From positions 1-28,300 of IMG/VR virus record IMGVR_UViG_3300032676_000829: 28,300 bases of DNA, one strand, 5' to 3'. Positions 158-26,305 of the stretch are shown in pieces (position 1 is the stretch's first letter; every line of letters begins with the position of its first letter). The position numbers were made by a program, and so were the translations under genes. The stretch comes from a virus. The notes beneath the pieces are model-generated. The model saw only the letters and a list, made by a program, of their open reading frames with translations. It did no database searches and was not told the origin of the DNA.

Positions 158-1156
158 CTATTTAGCAGGAACTAAATGTCCTTCAAAAATCTTCCAGGCG
201 GCTTCCCAAGTCCAGCGTAGGCTTCCTCCATATATACTATTTCTATCTAACTGTAGACAAGCTGAAACTGCATCTTCTAAGTTGTCATTCATAAATCCAG
301 TGACCGCTTGATCAATAACATCTTCGGGTCCTTGGCAAGGATAAGCCGCGACCGGAGTTCCACAGGCCATTGCTTCAATCATAACTATACCAAATGTTTC
401 CCACTGACTAGGAAACACGAATACTTCTGCATTGGCATAATATTTGGCTAGATCTATGCCTGTCTTAAATCCTGTAAAATGTACATTGGGATATCGCTTC
501 TTATAAGTTTCTAACATAGGGCCATCGCCTACCATAATTTTTAAGTAACCTGGGTAATCTAACTCAAAGAATTTTTCTAAATTCTTTTCTTTACTAACAC
601 GGCTAACACATAAAAGATACTTAGCAGTTGTTTTTTCTCTAAGCTCAGGAGTGAATATCGCACGGTCAACACCGCGTGTCCATGGAATAACTTCACCGCT
701 GAATCCATGTGCCTTTAATTCAGCGACCATGCTGTCTGTAGTTGTTAGAACTTTGCCACTATGTTTATGAAACCAACGTACAAAACGCCAAGTAAGTGAC
801 TCAGGTATTCCAAATAACTTCTTGAGCCCTTCAGGAAACTTAGTGTGATAAGCGGTATTGTGAGGAATATCAGCCAATGAAAGATATGCTCTAGCCCACA
901 TACCAAGAGGACCTTCTGTGGCGATGTGGATATAATCCGGATTGACCGACGCAATCTTCTTGCCCATATTCCTGGGATAGCTAATCTTGACTTCGTTGTA
1001 GCCAGGGCAATCAATATAGCTGAACCACCCGGGATGAAGAAAAACAACGTTATAACCGTCCAGAATCGCACACGCTTCAATATTTTTGTACGTAGTGACA
1101 ACGCCATTTATTTGATCTGGAAGATTATCCGTTATTATTAGTATCGTCTTTGTCAT
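158..1156 (-). CDS. agt-like: GT4-family glycosyltransferase, Agt-like (glycolipid synthesis)
   Basis: A 332-residue GT-B fold glycosyltransferase of family GT4. The N-terminus (ILIITDNLPDQINGVVTTY) is the usual start of alpha-mannosyl/glucosyl transferases of the SqdX/PimB/Agt type. An ATEGPLG segment lies near residue 80, a VGDGP segment mid-way, and the nucleotide-sugar site ETFGIVMIE (E-x7-E) lies towards the C-terminus, followed by EAMACGTPV. Its start overlaps the end of the metallophosphoesterase by 32 bases, so the two are co-translated. In marine Alphaproteobacteria a GT of this kind (Agt) next to PlcP makes glycosyl-diacylglycerols that replace phospholipids under phosphate starvation. 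Activity on diacylglycerol here is inferred from family and neighbour. Modification of surface sugars is the alternative. Confidence 0.8.
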   Translation of the reverse strand: MTKTILIITDNLPDQINGVVTTYKNIEACAILDGYNVVFLHPGWFSYIDCPGYNEVKISYPRNMGKKIASVNPDYIHIATEGPLGMWARAYLSLADIPHNTAYHTKFPEGLKKLFGIPESLTWRFVRWFHKHSGKVLTTTDSMVAELKAHGFSGEVIPWTRGVDRAIFTPELREKTTAKYLLCVSRVSKEKNLEKFFELDYPGYLKIMVGDGPMLETYKKRYPNVHFTGFKTGIDLAKYYANAEVFVFPSQWETFGIVMIEAMACGTPVAAYPCQGPEDVIDQAVTGFMNDNLEDAVSACLQLDRNSIYGGSLRWTWEAAWKIFEGHLVPAK

Positions 1157-1904
1157 TCTCTCGTGTCCATGTAATTATTTCCCATTGACCATCATGATGT
1201 TCAACTAGTGCTGTACAACTTTCTACCCAGTCGCCATCATTCATATAAATGACGCCATCTATTTCTTTGATTTCAGCGTGATGTATGTGTCCACATATCA
1301 CACCATCAAAACCACGTTTTTTACAATAACGTGCTATGTTGGTTTCAAATTGAAACATAAAGTCTGATGCTTTTTTAACTTTATGCTTGAGATATTTACT
1401 AAGACTCCAGTAGCCAAAGCCTAACTTATGGCGCACCCAGTTAAACTTACTATTCCATTCTAATACTAGGTCGTATAGTTTATCACCTAAGAATGCTAGC
1501 CATGGAGCAAGACGTGTAATACCATCAAACAAATCACCATGCGTGACAAGATAATGTTTACCATCGGCACCAATATGTTCTGTTTGATTATGTATTTCAA
1601 CAAATCCAAACGAGAATCCGTATGGTATCATTGGACGCAGGAATTCGTCATGATTTCCAGCCACGTATACAACACGAGTACCGCGTTTAGCATGACCGAG
1701 AACTCGACGAACAACATTGGTATGGCTTTGTTTCCATCGCCACTTGTTTTGTTGGATCTTCCATGCATCGATAATATCTCCTACAAGATATAATGTTTCG
1801 CAAGTGTTGTGTTTGAGAAAATTGTTGAGCTTGGCCGCCTGTGAATCACGTGTGCCCAAGTGAATGTCGGAAATAAAAATACTGCGATAAGTTTTTGGTG
1901 TCAT
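1125..1904 (-). CDS. plcP-like: Metallophosphoesterase, PlcP / LpxH-like
   Basis: A 259-residue calcineurin-type phosphoesterase with all metal-binding blocks: D13 and H15 (SDIHLG), D43 (GDIID), N84-H85-D86 (GNHDE), H122 (THGD) and H206/H208 (GHIHHA). The DGDWVESCTALVEH block near the C-terminus is typical of the proteobacterial group usually named UDP-2,3-diacylglucosamine diphosphatase. That group includes PlcP, the phospholipase C used for lipid renovation in SAR11 and roseobacters. It has no signal peptide and should act at the inner face of the membrane. The adjacent overlapping glycosyltransferase favours PlcP over LpxH (inference). A GATAAATA box lies only five bases before the ATG, leaving little room for a leader. 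Confidence 0.82.
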   Translation of the reverse strand: MTPKTYRSIFISDIHLGTRDSQAAKLNNFLKHNTCETLYLVGDIIDAWKIQQNKWRWKQSHTNVVRRVLGHAKRGTRVVYVAGNHDEFLRPMIPYGFSFGFVEIHNQTEHIGADGKHYLVTHGDLFDGITRLAPWLAFLGDKLYDLVLEWNSKFNWVRHKLGFGYWSLSKYLKHKVKKASDFMFQFETNIARYCKKRGFDGVICGHIHHAEIKEIDGVIYMNDGDWVESCTALVEHHDGQWEIITWTRENDKDDTNNNG

Positions 1905-1942: not shown

Positions 1943-2074
1943 TTATTTTACAGCTTCGGTGTGCTTACCTTTAAGGCTTTTTTTCAACAATTTAAGCCAA
2001 AACTTTTTGGCTTTTTCCATGTTGTGTTGGAGTTCGGCCTTGTTCAACTTCATTATTAATTTTTTAACTTTCAT
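1943..2074 (-). CDS. Small basic protein, 43 residues
   Basis: ATG at 2072-2074 to TAA at 1943-1945 encodes 43 residues, over a quarter of them Lys, with a pattern suggesting one or two amphipathic helices. A strong Shine-Dalgarno (AAAGGAGAT) lies seven bases upstream, which is the best evidence that the frame is real. It fills most of the gap between the metallophosphoesterase and the next gene. No family is recognised. The charge suggests nucleic-acid or membrane binding, but this is only inference. Confidence 0.65.
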   Translation of the reverse strand: MKVKKLIMKLNKAELQHNMEKAKKFWLKLLKKSLKGKHTEAVK

Positions 2075-2081
2075 GTTAATC

Positions 2082-2113
2082 TCCTTTGAGGTAAAAAAGG
2101 ACCACTAGGGTCC
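2082..2113 (-). promoter_or_regulatory. Terminator hairpin overlapping a Shine-Dalgarno-masking stem
   Basis: On the minus strand GGACC-CTAGT-GGTCC (2113-2099) is followed by six T residues (2098-2093), a short intrinsic terminator. The TCC of its 3' arm plus the T-run can instead pair with AAAGGA (2087-2082), the Shine-Dalgarno of the 43-residue gene, through a six-base perfect stem with an eight-base loop. The two folds are mutually exclusive, so this could be an attenuator. The fold is read by eye and not computed. Confidence 0.5.
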
Positions 2114-3340: not shown

Positions 3341-3348
3341 TATTTATG
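3341..3348 (-). promoter_or_regulatory. T4-type late promoter box CATAAATA
   Basis: CATAAATA on the minus strand, seven bases before the ATG of the nuclease-like gene and directly after the stop of the bilin reductase. Its position suggests a nearly leaderless late transcript. Confidence 0.4.
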
Positions 3349-4039
3349 CGATATTAGGGAACAAACAATCCTGTATGAAAACACGTACATCCTCTTCGTC
3401 TAGCCCTAAACTAGCCATGACTTTGGGTGTATGTGGATTTTGCTTTTGATTATCGCAATAGTAGTTCTGATAACTGGTCGTGTCTAGCACACGGTTATTA
3501 GTTTCTCCCACTGTTTCTAAGTAATGATTTACAAGGATGTTGGCTAGACTGCTGATTTGTGCTAGTTCGCTATCATCACTAACATTACCTGCGGCTACCA
3601 TATGTTGGCTAAAAATACGTTTGGCCCAATCCGGTAATTCACGCTTTTTAAACCATTCGTAACGTGATACTTCTTCGCCAAAATAGTCTAGCATAGGATG
3701 GAATTTGTCTTCTGTAGGGCTGTAGTCAATGAAACAACCAGTCATCTTGTTTTTACCAGCAATTACATCAAAACCAAAAATAGGAGCAGGATTATGAGTG
3801 TGTGGAAAGATGCAACAATGCATCATCCAGAGCCCTCGTGAATCTCGTGCATCAACCACATCAATATGAGCACGGCGATAAAGAACAGAGCTCCATACAC
3901 GATTAATCCACCCAGGTTGGTTAAATCGATCCATTCCAGGCTCAAAGATTTCAGTGCCAGTCCGGCCAAATTCAGTCTCCAATAAGTGCTGAATATTTAT
4001 TAAAGTATCCCAAACTTTACTCGTCGGTATATTCGACAT
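3344..4039 (-). CDS. pcyX: Ferredoxin-dependent bilin reductase, PcyX-like
   Basis: A 231-residue member of the HY2/PcyA/PebS family, close to the length of phage PebS and PcyX. Landmarks are HIDVVDARDS (58-67), WMMHCCIFPH (71-80) and PIFGFDVI (86-93), whose D91 aligns with the catalytic Asp region of the family, then a C-terminal DTTSYQNYYC segment. Known oceanic-phage PcyX reduces biliverdin IXalpha to phycoerythrobilin using reduced ferredoxin. The gene overlaps heme oxygenase by 23 bases, so substrate supply and use are coupled. No ferredoxin, lyase or phycobiliprotein gene is in the window, so the electron donor must come from elsewhere and the role of the pigment is unknown. The PcyX subgroup is my inference; family membership is clear. 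Confidence 0.85.
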   Translation of the reverse strand: MSNIPTSKVWDTLINIQHLLETEFGRTGTEIFEPGMDRFNQPGWINRVWSSVLYRRAHIDVVDARDSRGLWMMHCCIFPHTHNPAPIFGFDVIAGKNKMTGCFIDYSPTEDKFHPMLDYFGEEVSRYEWFKKRELPDWAKRIFSQHMVAAGNVSDDSELAQISSLANILVNHYLETVGETNNRVLDTTSYQNYYCDNQKQNPHTPKVMASLGLDEEDVRVFIQDCLFPNIA

Positions 4040-4568
4040 GTGTCATCATTTCTTTAAAAAATTCTGTAGCGTATTCAAAACATATTTTTGCTTCATCTGC
4101 CATGCTGTCGTCGATTTTTGCACGAATAGCATCTTTTAGTTCTTCGGGTTTTTCAAACTTATAAAACTTACCGCTACCAGGAACTTTTTTAGCAATCATT
4201 TGTCCGCCTGCTAGGTCGCCCATATGACGTACATAGATATGTGCCATTAACTTTTTAGGATCATCTTTGATACTTAAGATATATTTGATATATTTTTGTG
4301 TAATAGGAAGAATTTCTACTTCACCATCTTCATCGGACCAAAGTTCTTGAAAATCACTAAGGATATTAGGAGCACGACGAACATCTGGTAAACCATTTAA
4401 TAGTCCTAATGGCATAGCACATACTTCTAAAATTTCATACATTGGATGCTGATTTTTTAGATAGGTAGCATAGAGTTTAGGATTGATTTTACCACTAAAA
4501 AGAATTTTTACAAATTCTTGACGTTCTGCGTTTGTATGTGCATCTTTGGTTAATTCACGTAGACTCAT
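4017..4568 (-). CDS. hemO: Heme oxygenase
   Basis: A 183-residue heme oxygenase, somewhat shorter than cyanobacterial HO1. The proximal heme ligand is probably H11 in LTKDAHTNAE, and the distal-helix signature YVRHMGDLAGGQ is at 112-123. It cleaves heme to biliverdin, CO and iron, giving the substrate for the bilin reductase immediately downstream. Its ATG overlaps the clpS stop by four bases (ATGA), so clpS, hemO and pcyX form one translational unit. Besides pigment synthesis, the released iron could feed the IscU/IscA and NrdB proteins encoded further along (inference). Confidence 0.9.
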   Translation of the reverse strand: MSLRELTKDAHTNAERQEFVKILFSGKINPKLYATYLKNQHPMYEILEVCAMPLGLLNGLPDVRRAPNILSDFQELWSDEDGEVEILPITQKYIKYILSIKDDPKKLMAHIYVRHMGDLAGGQMIAKKVPGSGKFYKFEKPEELKDAIRAKIDDSMADEAKICFEYATEFFKEMMTHVEYTDE

Positions 4569-12657: not shown

Positions 12658-12686
12658 ATTATACTGTCAATTTTGGTAAATGTCAA
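12658..12686 (-). promoter_or_regulatory. Consensus sigma70 promoter
   Basis: TTGACA (12686-12681), exactly 17 bases, then TATAAT (12663-12658), a perfect match to the bacterial consensus. A second overlapping pair (TTGACA 12670-12665, 18 bases, TATAAC 12646-12641) follows. It overlaps the iscA stop and drives the LEGPW gene and probably the wall hydrolase, with host polymerase. Confidence 0.85.
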
Positions 12687-13009
12687 ACACGAAAACTTTC
12701 ACCGCAACCGCAACGGTCACGCTCATTTGGATTGACAAAATCAAATCCTTCATTGAGTCCATTGCGGACCCAATCCATTGTAAGCCCATTCAAGTACGGA
12801 TCATCTTTTAGACTTACCAGTACACAAAAGTCATTTTGGGCATAATTTATAACACCTTCTTCGCCGTCATACTTATCCACATATTCTAGCACGTAGGCCA
12901 GGCCCGAGCAACCGGTAGTTCTTACGCCTATGCGAATGCCAACGCCTTTACCGCGTTTGGCAAGATTTTGTTTAATTTTAGCCTTGGCTGTGTCTGTTAC
13001 GATAATCAT
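12683..13009 (-). CDS. iscA: Iron-sulfur carrier IscA / ErpA type
   Basis: A 108-residue A-type carrier of full length. The three conserved cysteines are present: C34 in TTGCSGLAYV and C100/C102 in the terminal CGCGESF. The middle LVSLKDDPYLNGLTMDWV and FDFVNPNE match the family. A-type carriers receive Fe-S clusters from IscU and pass them to client proteins. The gene overlaps iscU by 32 bases. No IscS, HscA, HscB or ferredoxin follows, so host desulfurase would supply sulfur, although the phage DnaK could in principle stand in for HscA (speculation). Confidence 0.95.
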   Translation of the reverse strand: MIIVTDTAKAKIKQNLAKRGKGVGIRIGVRTTGCSGLAYVLEYVDKYDGEEGVINYAQNDFCVLVSLKDDPYLNGLTMDWVRNGLNEGFDFVNPNERDRCGCGESFRV

Positions 13010-13364
13010 TAATAGCCGCTTTGATAGCGTCCTCTGCTAGAATTGAACAATGTATCTTTACTGGGGGTAATGCTAGTTCTTCGGCAATTTGGGAATTTTT
13101 AAGGTTAACAGCATCATCAATATGCATACCCTTAACCCACTCTGTAACCAACGACGAACTGGCGATTGCTGAACCGCATCCATATGTCTTGAAACGAGCA
13201 TCTCTAATAATACCATCTTCATCTACCTTTATTTGTAATTTCATGACATCACCACAGGCCGGTGCTCCAACCATGCCTGTACCAACAGTAGGATCATTCT
13301 TATCAAACGATCCTACATTGCGTGGATTTTCATAATGATCAATAACTTTGTCCGAATATGCCAT
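12978..13364 (-). CDS. iscU: Iron-sulfur scaffold IscU
   Basis: A 128-residue IscU with every functional residue: C37 (GAPACGD) with D39, C63 (YGCGSAIASSS), the chaperone-binding LPPVK at 99-103 and C106 (IHCSILAEDAI). The N-terminus YSDKVIDHYENPRNVGSF is canonical. It assembles 2Fe-2S clusters with a desulfurase. Its ribosome site AAGGAAAG overlaps the end of the PP-loop gene. A complete IscU-IscA pair in a phage suggests a need for Fe-S maturation during infection. The LPPVK motif means it could still be handled by an Hsp70-type chaperone. Confidence 0.96.
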   Translation of the reverse strand: MAYSDKVIDHYENPRNVGSFDKNDPTVGTGMVGAPACGDVMKLQIKVDEDGIIRDARFKTYGCGSAIASSSLVTEWVKGMHIDDAVNLKNSQIAEELALPPVKIHCSILAEDAIKAAINDYRNRHSQG

Positions 13365-13373
13365 ATACTTTCC

Positions 13374-14417
13374 TTAGGGTAAGGTTTTTAAATAAGTGTT
13401 ATGATAGTTTTCCAACATGAACATCCAGTATGGATCTATCGCACTAAAACTACTTATTTGTTTTTGCTTGTGTTTAGCATAATGAGTTTCACCGAAAACA
13501 TCAGACAATATACTACGCATCTGCCAACGATGTGTGTTTGGATCGCCTTTAACTAGGGTAAAAGGTTCATTTGTACTAACTGCCCAAGTTTGAAAATCAT
13601 CTGTGCTGAAAAATCCTAGTATATTTTCAGCAACTTCTTTTGTCAACTGTGTACGATGTTCGTACAAAGCTGTGTACCAATCCAAATTAAAAATACAAAG
13701 CCATCGTAAATCTGCTACAGTTTCTATTGGACGTGGGCTAGATTTAATAACAGGATCTAAAAATTCTAATAATTCTGGATTGATATTGGTCTTGTAATCT
13801 TCGTAGATAGTTTCCGCAGTCCCCAATGTATGATGGAACATGGCAGTATTGCCATTGGCAAAGAAATCATCAGTGGGTCCAAATAATTGATTACCGCACA
13901 TGCCGCTGACATACACACCGTCGAATTCTTTAAAATTATATTCGTTTCGTGCGGCTACTTTGATATTATATTTAAATTCTTTACTAATCCTACGATCAAA
14001 CAAATCGCCTGATTCTATAACGCTATTGTATGTTCCGTAGACTCTAACTTGATCTGCATCTTTGGCATATTTTTGTAACATGAATAATATAAATGTACTG
14101 TCAATGCCGCCACTCCACATGACATTGATTGGTACATCTAAATCTATTAATTCTTTAGCACGTTGTTCTGCTACTTCAAAAAAACTACGATTGTAATTGG
14201 GCTGTCTTGGTGGGATAGGATGAAGCCCTTTACTCATTTTTAAATAATGAGGAAGAGCTCCAGTTCTGTCATAGATTACGTTGTGTCTATTTAAACCAAA
14301 TCGTTCGTAGTTATCGATTAGTTCATCAGTTTTGTCGTAGGAAAAGAAAATTTCTAAATCGCTAGGACACTTTTTTAAGATAGTAGAGACGGCATGTACA
14401 TTATAATACAGTATCAT
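13374..14417 (-). CDS. PP-loop ATP pyrophosphatase, asparagine-synthase-like
   Basis: A 347-residue protein with the PP-loop SGGIDST at 102-108 preceded by hydrophobic VPINVMW. The C-terminal KHKQKQISSF and DPYWMFML are reminiscent of the synthase domain of asparagine synthetase. There is no N-terminal glutaminase domain with Cys2, so ammonia or another amine donor must be used, or the protein adenylates something else. Stand-alone proteins of this kind occur in T4-like cyanophages with unknown substrate. It lies eight bases after the DctP-like gene and nine before iscU. Amide-forming or sulfur-transfer chemistry both remain possible. Confidence 0.75.
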   Translation of the reverse strand: MILYYNVHAVSTILKKCPSDLEIFFSYDKTDELIDNYERFGLNRHNVIYDRTGALPHYLKMSKGLHPIPPRQPNYNRSFFEVAEQRAKELIDLDVPINVMWSGGIDSTFILFMLQKYAKDADQVRVYGTYNSVIESGDLFDRRISKEFKYNIKVAARNEYNFKEFDGVYVSGMCGNQLFGPTDDFFANGNTAMFHHTLGTAETIYEDYKTNINPELLEFLDPVIKSSPRPIETVADLRWLCIFNLDWYTALYEHRTQLTKEVAENILGFFSTDDFQTWAVSTNEPFTLVKGDPNTHRWQMRSILSDVFGETHYAKHKQKQISSFSAIDPYWMFMLENYHNTYLKTLP

Positions 14418-14425
14418 CTATATCC

Positions 14426-15370
14426 TTATTGTGTTTTAATTTGATCTACTAATCCAGAAGTAAAATAGTCAGCAAACTTTGTATAAACAATTTGTGTAGC
14501 ATCTGCGAAACGTTGTTGTTCTTCAGACGACATACGAATAACTTCGATACCATCTGCTTCGGCACGGAGTTGTGTTTGAATTACATCATCGATACTGATA
14601 GTACGTTCGTAACGTGCGGCAACTTGTGCTGATTCACTTACGATTGTTTGTAATTCTGGGGTTAGTGTATTCCAGAAGTCAGTACCAACTAGAATGCTTG
14701 TTAGAAACAAACTGTGTTCTGTATGATTAATATAGTTGCTTACTTTAGCTTGATTCAATGCATAGATACGTGGATAAGTACTTTCCCCGATGGTAACGTT
14801 AGCCTTACCTAAATTTTCAGTAAGTTCTTCCAATTCCATTGGAACTACATCAGCACCTAATGTCTTGAATGTTTCGATAGCAACTGGACTGAAACTTGTA
14901 CGTAGCTTAACACCACGTAAGTCTTCAATTCGACTAACTGCTTCGTTTCCTGGGATAATACGGAAACCACCTGAATATGTAAATGCTAGACCTTTAATCT
15001 TTTTAGATTCTTGCAAACTGTCTAACAACTGTTTACCAACTGCACCTTCGAACACACGACTAGCATGGTCGTGGTCTTTAAATAAGAATGGCAAATCTAA
15101 TGCAAAGAAATCTTTGTTGATTTTACCTAGTGTAATTGTGTATGTCTGACTCATTTCGATAGCACCGCTATCTAATAAATCTACTAGACTATGTTTATCA
15201 ACTACTACACCGTTATTATATTTCTCTGAGTATTCGCTCATAGTCATAACTTCGATGTCTAGTTGCTCAGGAGCACGAGCATTTACTTCTGCGGCAAATA
15301 CTTTAGCGGCACGAAGAAACAATTCAATTGGTTCATGTGCTAATACCCATTTTACGTGCTTTTTATTCAT
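14426..15370 (-). CDS. dctP-like: TRAP-transporter solute-binding protein, DctP family, without signal peptide
   Basis: I start at ATG 15368-15370 (MNKKHVKWVLAHEP), since the codons above it overlap the previous gene. The 314 residues cover the whole DctP fold: YSEKYNNG, FALDLPFLFKDHDHASRVF, the ligand-gating Arg region SRIEDLRGVKLRT, VPMELEEL, and VGTDFWNTLTPELQ. DctP proteins normally carry an N-terminal signal peptide and work in the periplasm. Here the first beta-strand begins at about residue 6 and no hydrophobic leader exists, so the protein should stay in the cytoplasm or the virion. Its role is unknown: a ligand sink, sensor, or structural reuse. No TRAP membrane subunits are in the window. 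Confidence 0.88.
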   Translation of the reverse strand: MNKKHVKWVLAHEPIELFLRAAKVFAAEVNARAPEQLDIEVMTMSEYSEKYNNGVVVDKHSLVDLLDSGAIEMSQTYTITLGKINKDFFALDLPFLFKDHDHASRVFEGAVGKQLLDSLQESKKIKGLAFTYSGGFRIIPGNEAVSRIEDLRGVKLRTSFSPVAIETFKTLGADVVPMELEELTENLGKANVTIGESTYPRIYALNQAKVSNYINHTEHSLFLTSILVGTDFWNTLTPELQTIVSESAQVAARYERTISIDDVIQTQLRAEADGIEVIRMSSEEQQRFADATQIVYTKFADYFTSGLVDQIKTQ

Positions 15371-15647
15371 ATTTAAAACTCCAAGTTTCCGATTGTGTTC
15401 TAGCGTCAACTACACGCTTTATTACATGTGCTTTTTTAGCTATGAGTTCTCTAATAACTTCTTCGCTAGGTAGCTTATCATTATTTATCAACTTAGAAAC
15501 TGGTATTAGCAAACTTCTATGCCCGTATTCTTTTACATTTGAATTATAAAAGAAATAGTCTTTTATTGAAAATAAGTTGTTCAACGGGCCTTTAACTGGA
15601 AATTCGTTTATTTCAAGTATGTATTCATTGAGAAAGGCTTGGGTCAT
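15363..15647 (-). CDS. Uncharacterised small protein
   Basis: A 94-residue protein overlapping the DctP-like start by eight bases and the preceding membrane-protein gene by 23. The sequence contains IKDYFFYNSNVKEYGHRSLLIPVSKLI and then a basic helix (EEVIRELIAKKAHVIKRVVDAR). I recognise no family. Translational overlap on both sides is the main support. Confidence 0.65.
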   Translation of the reverse strand: MTQAFLNEYILEINEFPVKGPLNNLFSIKDYFFYNSNVKEYGHRSLLIPVSKLINNDKLPSEEVIRELIAKKAHVIKRVVDARTQSETWSFKYE

Positions 15648-26297: not shown

Positions 26298-26305
26298 TAT
26301 TTATA
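26298..26305 (-). promoter_or_regulatory. Consensus T4 late promoter TATAAATA
   Basis: An exact TATAAATA on the minus strand, 28 bases before the ATG of the repeat-bearing virion gene. It lies just inside the 3' end of the preceding gene. It is the best late box in the window. Confidence 0.75.

Follow-up and report, generated by a model that had tools for sequence, protein, structure and literature searches.

The minus-strand locus described here was interpreted as a phage-encoded membrane-lipid conversion cassette with a proposed two-step mechanism, a reading that we consider probable. What the analysis showed is the identity of the genes, their conserved pairing, the purifying selection on them and a gene order shared with the cellular pathway. 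The locus lies in a window of 28,300 bases, which is a whole IMG/VR virus record, and comprises:

1125 to 1904, minus strand: plcP-like metallophosphoesterase (MPE), predicted phospholipase C, 259 aa (Pfam, identity, tree)
158 to 1156, minus strand: agt-like GT4 glycosyltransferase (GT), predicted DAG glycosyltransferase, 332 aa (identity, tree, AlphaFold)
1125 to 1156, minus strand: overlap of the 3′ end of plcP with the 5′ end of the GT gene, exactly 32 bases (sequence)

Both reading frames were intact, with the MPE (1904 to 1125) upstream and the GT4 (1156 to 158) downstream, and the 32-base overlap claimed in the first-pass annotation was recovered exactly. The MPE matched Pfam Metallophos at 46.6 bits (cut-off 21.5) and the GT matched Pfam Glycos_transf_1 at 89.9 bits (cut-off 26.4).

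Neighbouring genes in the window were phage-like (NrdA/NrdB, exonucleases and a virion structural protein). The T4 major capsid protein Gp23 was present in six large related records, all related records being uncultivated contigs, and the carriers of the cassette are large T4-type phages. The nearest phage isolate by NrdA was Xanthomonas phage X1 (59.6%). A single site for the T4 late promoter, TATAAATA, was located in the window at 26298, below the chance expectation. Metabolic genes were numerous in the window, including DnaK, IscU, heme oxygenase, bilin reductase and a TRAP solute-binding protein. The window IscU was ~80% identical to that of many genomes of the Methylopumilus class, a host signal that is not specific. 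Genes for heme oxygenase and ferredoxin-dependent bilin reductase were adjacent (3344 to 4568, minus strand); nothing evident marks this phage as a cyanophage. Genes for an IscU-like scaffold and an A-type Fe-S carrier were likewise adjacent (12683 to 13364, minus strand), and the gene for the TRAP-type DctP solute-binding protein (14426 to 15409, minus strand) adjoined an asparagine-synthase-like gene (13374 to 14417).

Over 243 aa, the MPE shared 54.7% identity with P. aeruginosa PlcP (E = 2e-90); its identity to S. meliloti PlcP was 46.9%, and its alignments to LpxH were partial, at 22-30% identity. The S. meliloti gene (locus L161) adjoins acyl-homoserine-lactone synthase and LuxR-type genes, and from these neighbours we take it to be SMc00171. 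The P. aeruginosa gene (locus L162) was identified by the PA3219-PA3218 gene order, with its function taken from the literature (PMC8528852). The curated LpxH models were missed widely by the MPE, at 39.1 bits for TIGR01854 (cut-off 190) and 48.7 bits for PRK05340 (cut-off 134). When TIGR01854 was applied to 14 cellular genomes, the scores fell into two separate groups, with 188-294 bits for true LpxH and 38-54 bits for PlcP-like proteins; the score of the MPE therefore groups it with the PlcP-like proteins and not with true LpxH. A maximum-likelihood tree split LpxH from PlcP at 100/100, with the MPE on the PlcP side. The phage MPEs were monophyletic in this tree at 100/99, and their sister at 89/85 was the PlcP of Pelagibacter phage Mosig. 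LpxH was accordingly rejected as an identity for the MPE on scores, identity and tree, and by its sequence the MPE is of PlcP type.

Metal ligands D13, H15, D43, N84, H122, H206 and H208 were all present in the MPE and invariant in the alignment, so that the dinuclear metal site expected of a calcineurin-like fold is complete. The metal-binding motifs are:

1860 to 1868, minus strand: D13-I-H15, with D and H invariant in the alignment
1647 to 1658, minus strand: GNHD (residues 83-86), with GNH invariant and D nearly so
1281 to 1292, minus strand: GHIH (residues 205-208), with G205, H206 and H208 invariant

The predicted model of the MPE was of moderate quality (pLDDT 80.6) with a poor lid region. 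LpxH was ranked first in a fold search, as expected since LpxH proteins are its nearest solved relatives.

The GT was 39% identical to P. aeruginosa Agt1 and 42-45% identical to cellular GTs encoded downstream of plcP; identity to other GT4s, in alignments spanning most of the protein, was about 22-29%. In the tree it was placed in the Agt clade at 100/99 with the characterised Agt1, and other GT4s from the same genomes lay outside. Its nearest cellular neighbours were GTs of Ca. Methylopumilus (99/97) and SAR86/gammaproteobacterial GTs. The trees represented the Agt of SAR11, Agrobacterium and Phaeobacter by Citromicrobium (L217) and P. aeruginosa. Over-extension of ORF starts makes the label 'cell_GT_no_PlcP' in the GT tree unreliable, and adjacency to plcP was taken from a separate neighbour count. 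A total of 84,980 species genomes were scanned with the GT alignment alone and the 80 best loci were taken, mainly from Sphingomonadales/Erythrobacteraceae, Aurantimonadaceae, Oxalobacteraceae, SAR86 and Ca. Methylopumilus. A PlcP-like gene was located upstream on the same strand in 76 of these 80 loci (within about 300 nt in 75), matching the gene order of published plcP-agt operons (PMC4796936). The AlphaFold model of the GT had a confident GT-B fold (pLDDT 92.6); sequence searches of the PDB and fold searches returned generic GT4s only, and neither separates Agt from other GT4s. A surface-polysaccharide GT4 was rejected as an identity for this protein on the tree and the cellular plcP context.

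The first-pass annotation had named the pair as a PlcP-group metallophosphoesterase with an Agt-type GT4 and had put forward phylogeny as the means of overturning this. Trees, identities and cellular context all agree with the assignment, the trees placing the MPE with PlcP and the GT with Agt1. If instead the MPE were an LpxH and the GT4 added sugars to LPS or surface polysaccharide, the locus would serve receptor masking or seroconversion. This is very improbable in view of the LpxH model scores, the grouping of both proteins with PlcP and Agt, the presence of a separate true LpxH in the same cellular genomes and the position of the closest cellular GTs after plcP. It draws on the LpxH folds returned for the MPE, on a weakly GtrB-like GT2 partner in other phages (below), and on public labels, since phage and plasmid relatives of the MPE are recorded as UDP-2,3-diacylglucosamine diphosphatase. 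These labels also bear out the earlier expectation that generic annotation would hide the pair.

The GT departs from characterised Agt at one motif:

389 to 415, minus strand: GT4 donor motif FPSQWETFG (residues 248-256), with Glu253 at the position of the catalytic Asp of characterised Agt

The Pelagibacter Agt (GTcp) requires His104, Asp256 and donor-/DAG-binding residues, and its D256E variant lost >90% of activity; Glu occupies this position in other active GT4s, e.g. MshA (PMC8231724). Residue equivalence between the window GT and GTcp was judged by motif. All mutation-tested catalytic, donor-site and DAG-site residues of GTcp were kept in the window GT except Asp256, with His104, Arg161 and Trp317 among those retained. 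Equivalents of GTcp Gly16, Gly82, Gly85, Thr162, Arg163, Arg190, Lys195, Thr257, Phe258, Gly259, Glu264 and Trp320 were also present. Of the Agt catalytic His-Asp dyad and the motif FPSxTDTFG, the window GT keeps His104 and has Glu253 for Asp and Trp252 for Thr; it was therefore filed as an Agt-clade variant and not as Agt proper. Among distinct sequences, FPSxWETFG was present in 85 of 89 phage GT4s and in 0 of 82 cellular GTs, and FPSxTDTFG or -TYG was present in all 82 cellular GTs, the counts being of related sequences and not of independent events. The four phage GT4s with other motifs sit on separate, deeper phage branches.

Since D256E removes >90% of the activity of the Pelagibacter Agt, the donor or the efficiency of the phage GT4 may differ, and the simplest inference from the sequences is that its donor specificity may be altered. 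A larger divergence, in which Glu253 and Trp252 would select another donor or acceptor and the enzyme would make a phage-specific glycolipid or no DAG glycolipid, is possible, although we lean against it. The split in motif between phage and cellular GTs, the near-complete loss of activity in D256E and the purifying selection still acting on the GT4 are in its favour, and are set against the retention of all other donor-/DAG-site residues, the natural occurrence of Glu in active GT4s such as MshA and the persisting linkage to plcP.

Viral scans matched at least 599 and 293 relatives. From the matches listed, the loci examined held 115 distinct phage PlcPs, 106 of them with enough downstream sequence to be informative. 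Among the matches listed, plcP was followed by a GT4 in 84 of these 106 loci and by a GT2 (about 237 aa) in 21, so that 105 had one or the other; a single locus (L041) had neither and none had both. Among the matches listed, distinct phage pairs of plcP and GT4 numbered 85, and in 39 of these the two genes overlapped. In comparisons with close phage relatives, dN/dS was about 0.03-0.05 in the MPE gene and 0.08-0.10 in the GT gene, values that mark strong purifying selection on the pair. With the recurring MPE-GT order, this selection indicates that the pairing is not due to chance. The large records were chosen for carrying plcP, which was present in 25 of 25 and single-copy in 24. Transient host genes do occur in phages, and the pair could in principle be passenger DNA, acquired from a host and unused; this is scarcely credible against dN/dS values of 0.03-0.16, a monophyletic phage MPE clade (100/99) of >100 distinct members and the single-copy retention of plcP in the large records.

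The glycosyl partner of plcP is exchangeable between GT4 and GT2. The GT2 is unrelated to the GT4, and its best phage-family match was to GtrB-like O-antigen conversion proteins at 32.7 bits. Examples of this exchange, and of genes inserted between plcP and GT4, are:

L019, 6858-7571; L045, 6870-7580; L055, 6743-7456; and others: GT2 replacing GT4 after plcP
L005, 6728-7627; L042, 6895-7785; L094; L115: RimK-like ATP-grasp gene between plcP and GT4
L126, 5391-6032; L140, 1278-2141: GIY-YIG homing-endonuclease-like ORFs between plcP and GT4

The ORF in L126 was named by inspection and gave no Pfam match. In L099 (5104-5859) the plcP frame contained one in-frame stop, which represents either a disruption or a sequencing error.

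Fatty-acid desaturase genes were found within a few kb of the cassette in 26 loci, and in 14 of 29 records, a lipid-related setting that speaks for the cassette reading. Examples are:

L083, 12188-12895, minus strand: desaturase near the cassette
L019, 7576-8277: desaturase near the cassette
L020, 2727-3431: desaturase near the cassette

The desaturase directly followed the GT2 in L019 and L020. L083 is a near-twin of the window in plcP and GT (GT 99.7% identical), with its desaturase 5.2 kb past the GT. In L146, L148 and L152 a desaturase lay directly 5′ of the GT4, and plcP was not found in the locus.

A small gene was located upstream of plcP in the window, between plcP and a hairpin:

1943 to 2074, minus strand: 43-aa basic microprotein MKVKKLIMKLNKAELQHNMEKAKKFWLKLLKKSLKGKHTEAVK, upstream of plcP, with Shine-Dalgarno aaaggag
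2099 to 2113, minus strand: terminator-like hairpin GGACCCTAGTGGTCC-TTTTTT, separating the microprotein from the gene upstream of it (consensus scan)

The microprotein (2074 to 1943) is lysine-rich and is preceded by a strong Shine-Dalgarno sequence. Among the matches listed, homologues of 43 or about 52 aa were present in 81 of 150 phage plcP loci, either 5′ of plcP or between plcP and the GT, with GT4 and GT2 alike; none was found in the cellular loci examined. A Shine-Dalgarno-like sequence preceded all 82 of 82 microprotein matches, and pN/pS was 0.24-0.30. The gene was present in 18 of 25 large records, always in single copy: of these 18 copies, 13 were no more than about 300 bases away from plcP, one was 2.2 kb away and four were more distant. 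The microprotein was therefore classed as an associated, and not an obligate, member of the cassette. The window and L083 carry different types (43 and 52 aa) at the same place beside near-identical plcP and GT genes, and a similar hairpin precedes the other type in L083. From its composition, one guess is that the microprotein acts at the membrane.

The link to phosphate limitation proposed in the first-pass annotation did not find support. The PhoB-box search that it had called for returned no Pho box upstream of plcP or the GT gene in the window, and elsewhere in the window there was one 3-mismatch match, at 14191, which is fewer than chance predicts. A family-wide scan of 300 bp upstream at 11 of 14 matches was weak in both groups (14/112 phage, 15/76 cells); the same scan scored only 10 of 14 on the P. 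aeruginosa control region with its published box. PstS was found in none of 27 related records, which counts against a conventional phosphorus-supply role, since such a role would predict phosphorus genes nearby. In Pelagibacter phage Mosig the PlcP gene is divergent from an annotated phosphate ABC transporter gene (L159, 3894-5729), a neighbourhood that counts in favour of the cassette reading.

The cellular plcP-agt pathway is established (PMC4796936, PMC8528852, PMC9239053). For the phage cassette we infer the enzyme activities, products and timing as follows. The PlcP-type MPE, which from its family is probably Mn-dependent, would cut the headgroup phosphate from phospholipids, e.g. PG, to give DAG. 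The Agt-type GT4 would then move a sugar from a nucleotide sugar onto DAG, giving a phosphorus-free glycolipid. The glycolipid would keep the bilayer intact, and the phosphorus would leave as the phospho-headgroup for host enzymes; as this product is not free phosphate, further host enzymes would be needed. The gene overlap would fit coupled expression, by which DAG from the MPE would be consumed by the GT4.

The benefit of the cassette is most likely lipid phosphorus for a large phage genome, a changed envelope during infection, or both; a supply of phosphorus is a plausible purpose, and a change to the envelope is just as possible. That the pair serves envelope change and not phosphorus supply, through charge, fluidity, peptide resistance or blocking of a second phage, has a substantial chance of being correct, though short of even. 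The missing Pho box in the window, the missing PstS in the 27 records and the nearby desaturases fit such a role; the exchangeable GT and changed catalytic motif suggest selection on lipid identity, and glycolipids make P. aeruginosa more resistant to polymyxin (PMC8528852). The cellular plcP-agt systems in the cited papers are, however, phosphorus-starvation systems, and the Mosig relative adjoins a phosphate-uptake gene. We put forward only tentatively, as rather unlikely when taken whole, that the phages have their own PlcP-Agt branch, independent of host PhoB, in which the GT4 with Asp-to-Glu and Thr-to-Trp changes would make a lipid unlike host MGDG/GADG, the glycosyl step would be modular (GT4/GT2) and an amphipathic microprotein would bring the enzymes to the membrane.

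The carrier, the changed active site and the gene association are new here; the enzymes themselves are known. The Asp-to-Glu change in the GT4, the GT4/GT2 exchange and the plcP-linked microprotein go beyond the first-pass annotation. In the open-access literature no paper was found on PlcP or Agt in phages, and individual phage PlcPs are present in public records without being recognised as such. Manipulation of host lipids by phage desaturases has already been proposed (PMC7678222). Among the viral metabolic genes listed in a Lake Baikal viral metatranscriptome study are lpxH and a desaturase gene (PMC9611531), and this viral lpxH may represent the same genes under a generic name.

If the cassette is active, viruses would encode the whole route from phospholipid to glycolipid, in some hundred distinct phage loci where the LpxH name conceals it, and phage mining of host membrane phosphorus would become directly testable. 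By a rough estimate, the roughly 2x10^7 phospholipids in a cell the size of E. coli match the phosphorus content of about 50 genomes of 200 kb. Given activity, surveys that count viral lpxH as lipopolysaccharide genes would misread a lipid-remodelling gene, and phosphorus-stress lipid biomarkers in natural waters may partly report infection.

The window pair was compared with known systems. P. aeruginosa PA3219-PA3218 and the Erythrobacter and SAR11 operons (PMC4796936, PMC8528852) share with it the plcP-then-agt order on one strand, the protein families, the metal ligands and most donor-/DAG-binding residues. Unlike those operons, the window pair is viral, has no Pho box in the window and carries Glu for the catalytic Asp; the phage pair also has a linked microprotein and a GT4 that is exchangeable with a GT2. 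Pelagibacter HTCC7211 Agt/GTcp (PMC8231724) falls in the same clade by proxy, through Citromicrobium relatives in both sets. Equivalents of GTcp His104, Arg163, Trp320, Arg190, Lys195, Thr257 and Glu264 are kept in the window GT, whereas D256 is replaced by Glu253 and the preceding Thr by Trp252 in the window GT and most phage homologues. Pelagibacter phage Mosig EXVC030M, a phage isolate, has a PlcP (QOI69083.1, annotated as UDP-2,3-diacylglucosamine hydrolase) about 50% identical to the MPE; this PlcP, unlike that of the window, has no adjoining Agt partner. LpxH shares the calcineurin-like phosphoesterase fold and metal motifs with the MPE but differs in its 22-30% partial identity, its separate clade (100/100) and the LpxH cut-offs, far below which the MPE scores. 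Phage fatty-acid/acyl-CoA desaturases, known from Lake Baikal viruses (PMC7678222) and present in relatives of the window, likewise act on host membrane lipids; those enzymes alter acyl chains, whereas the cassette would alter headgroups.
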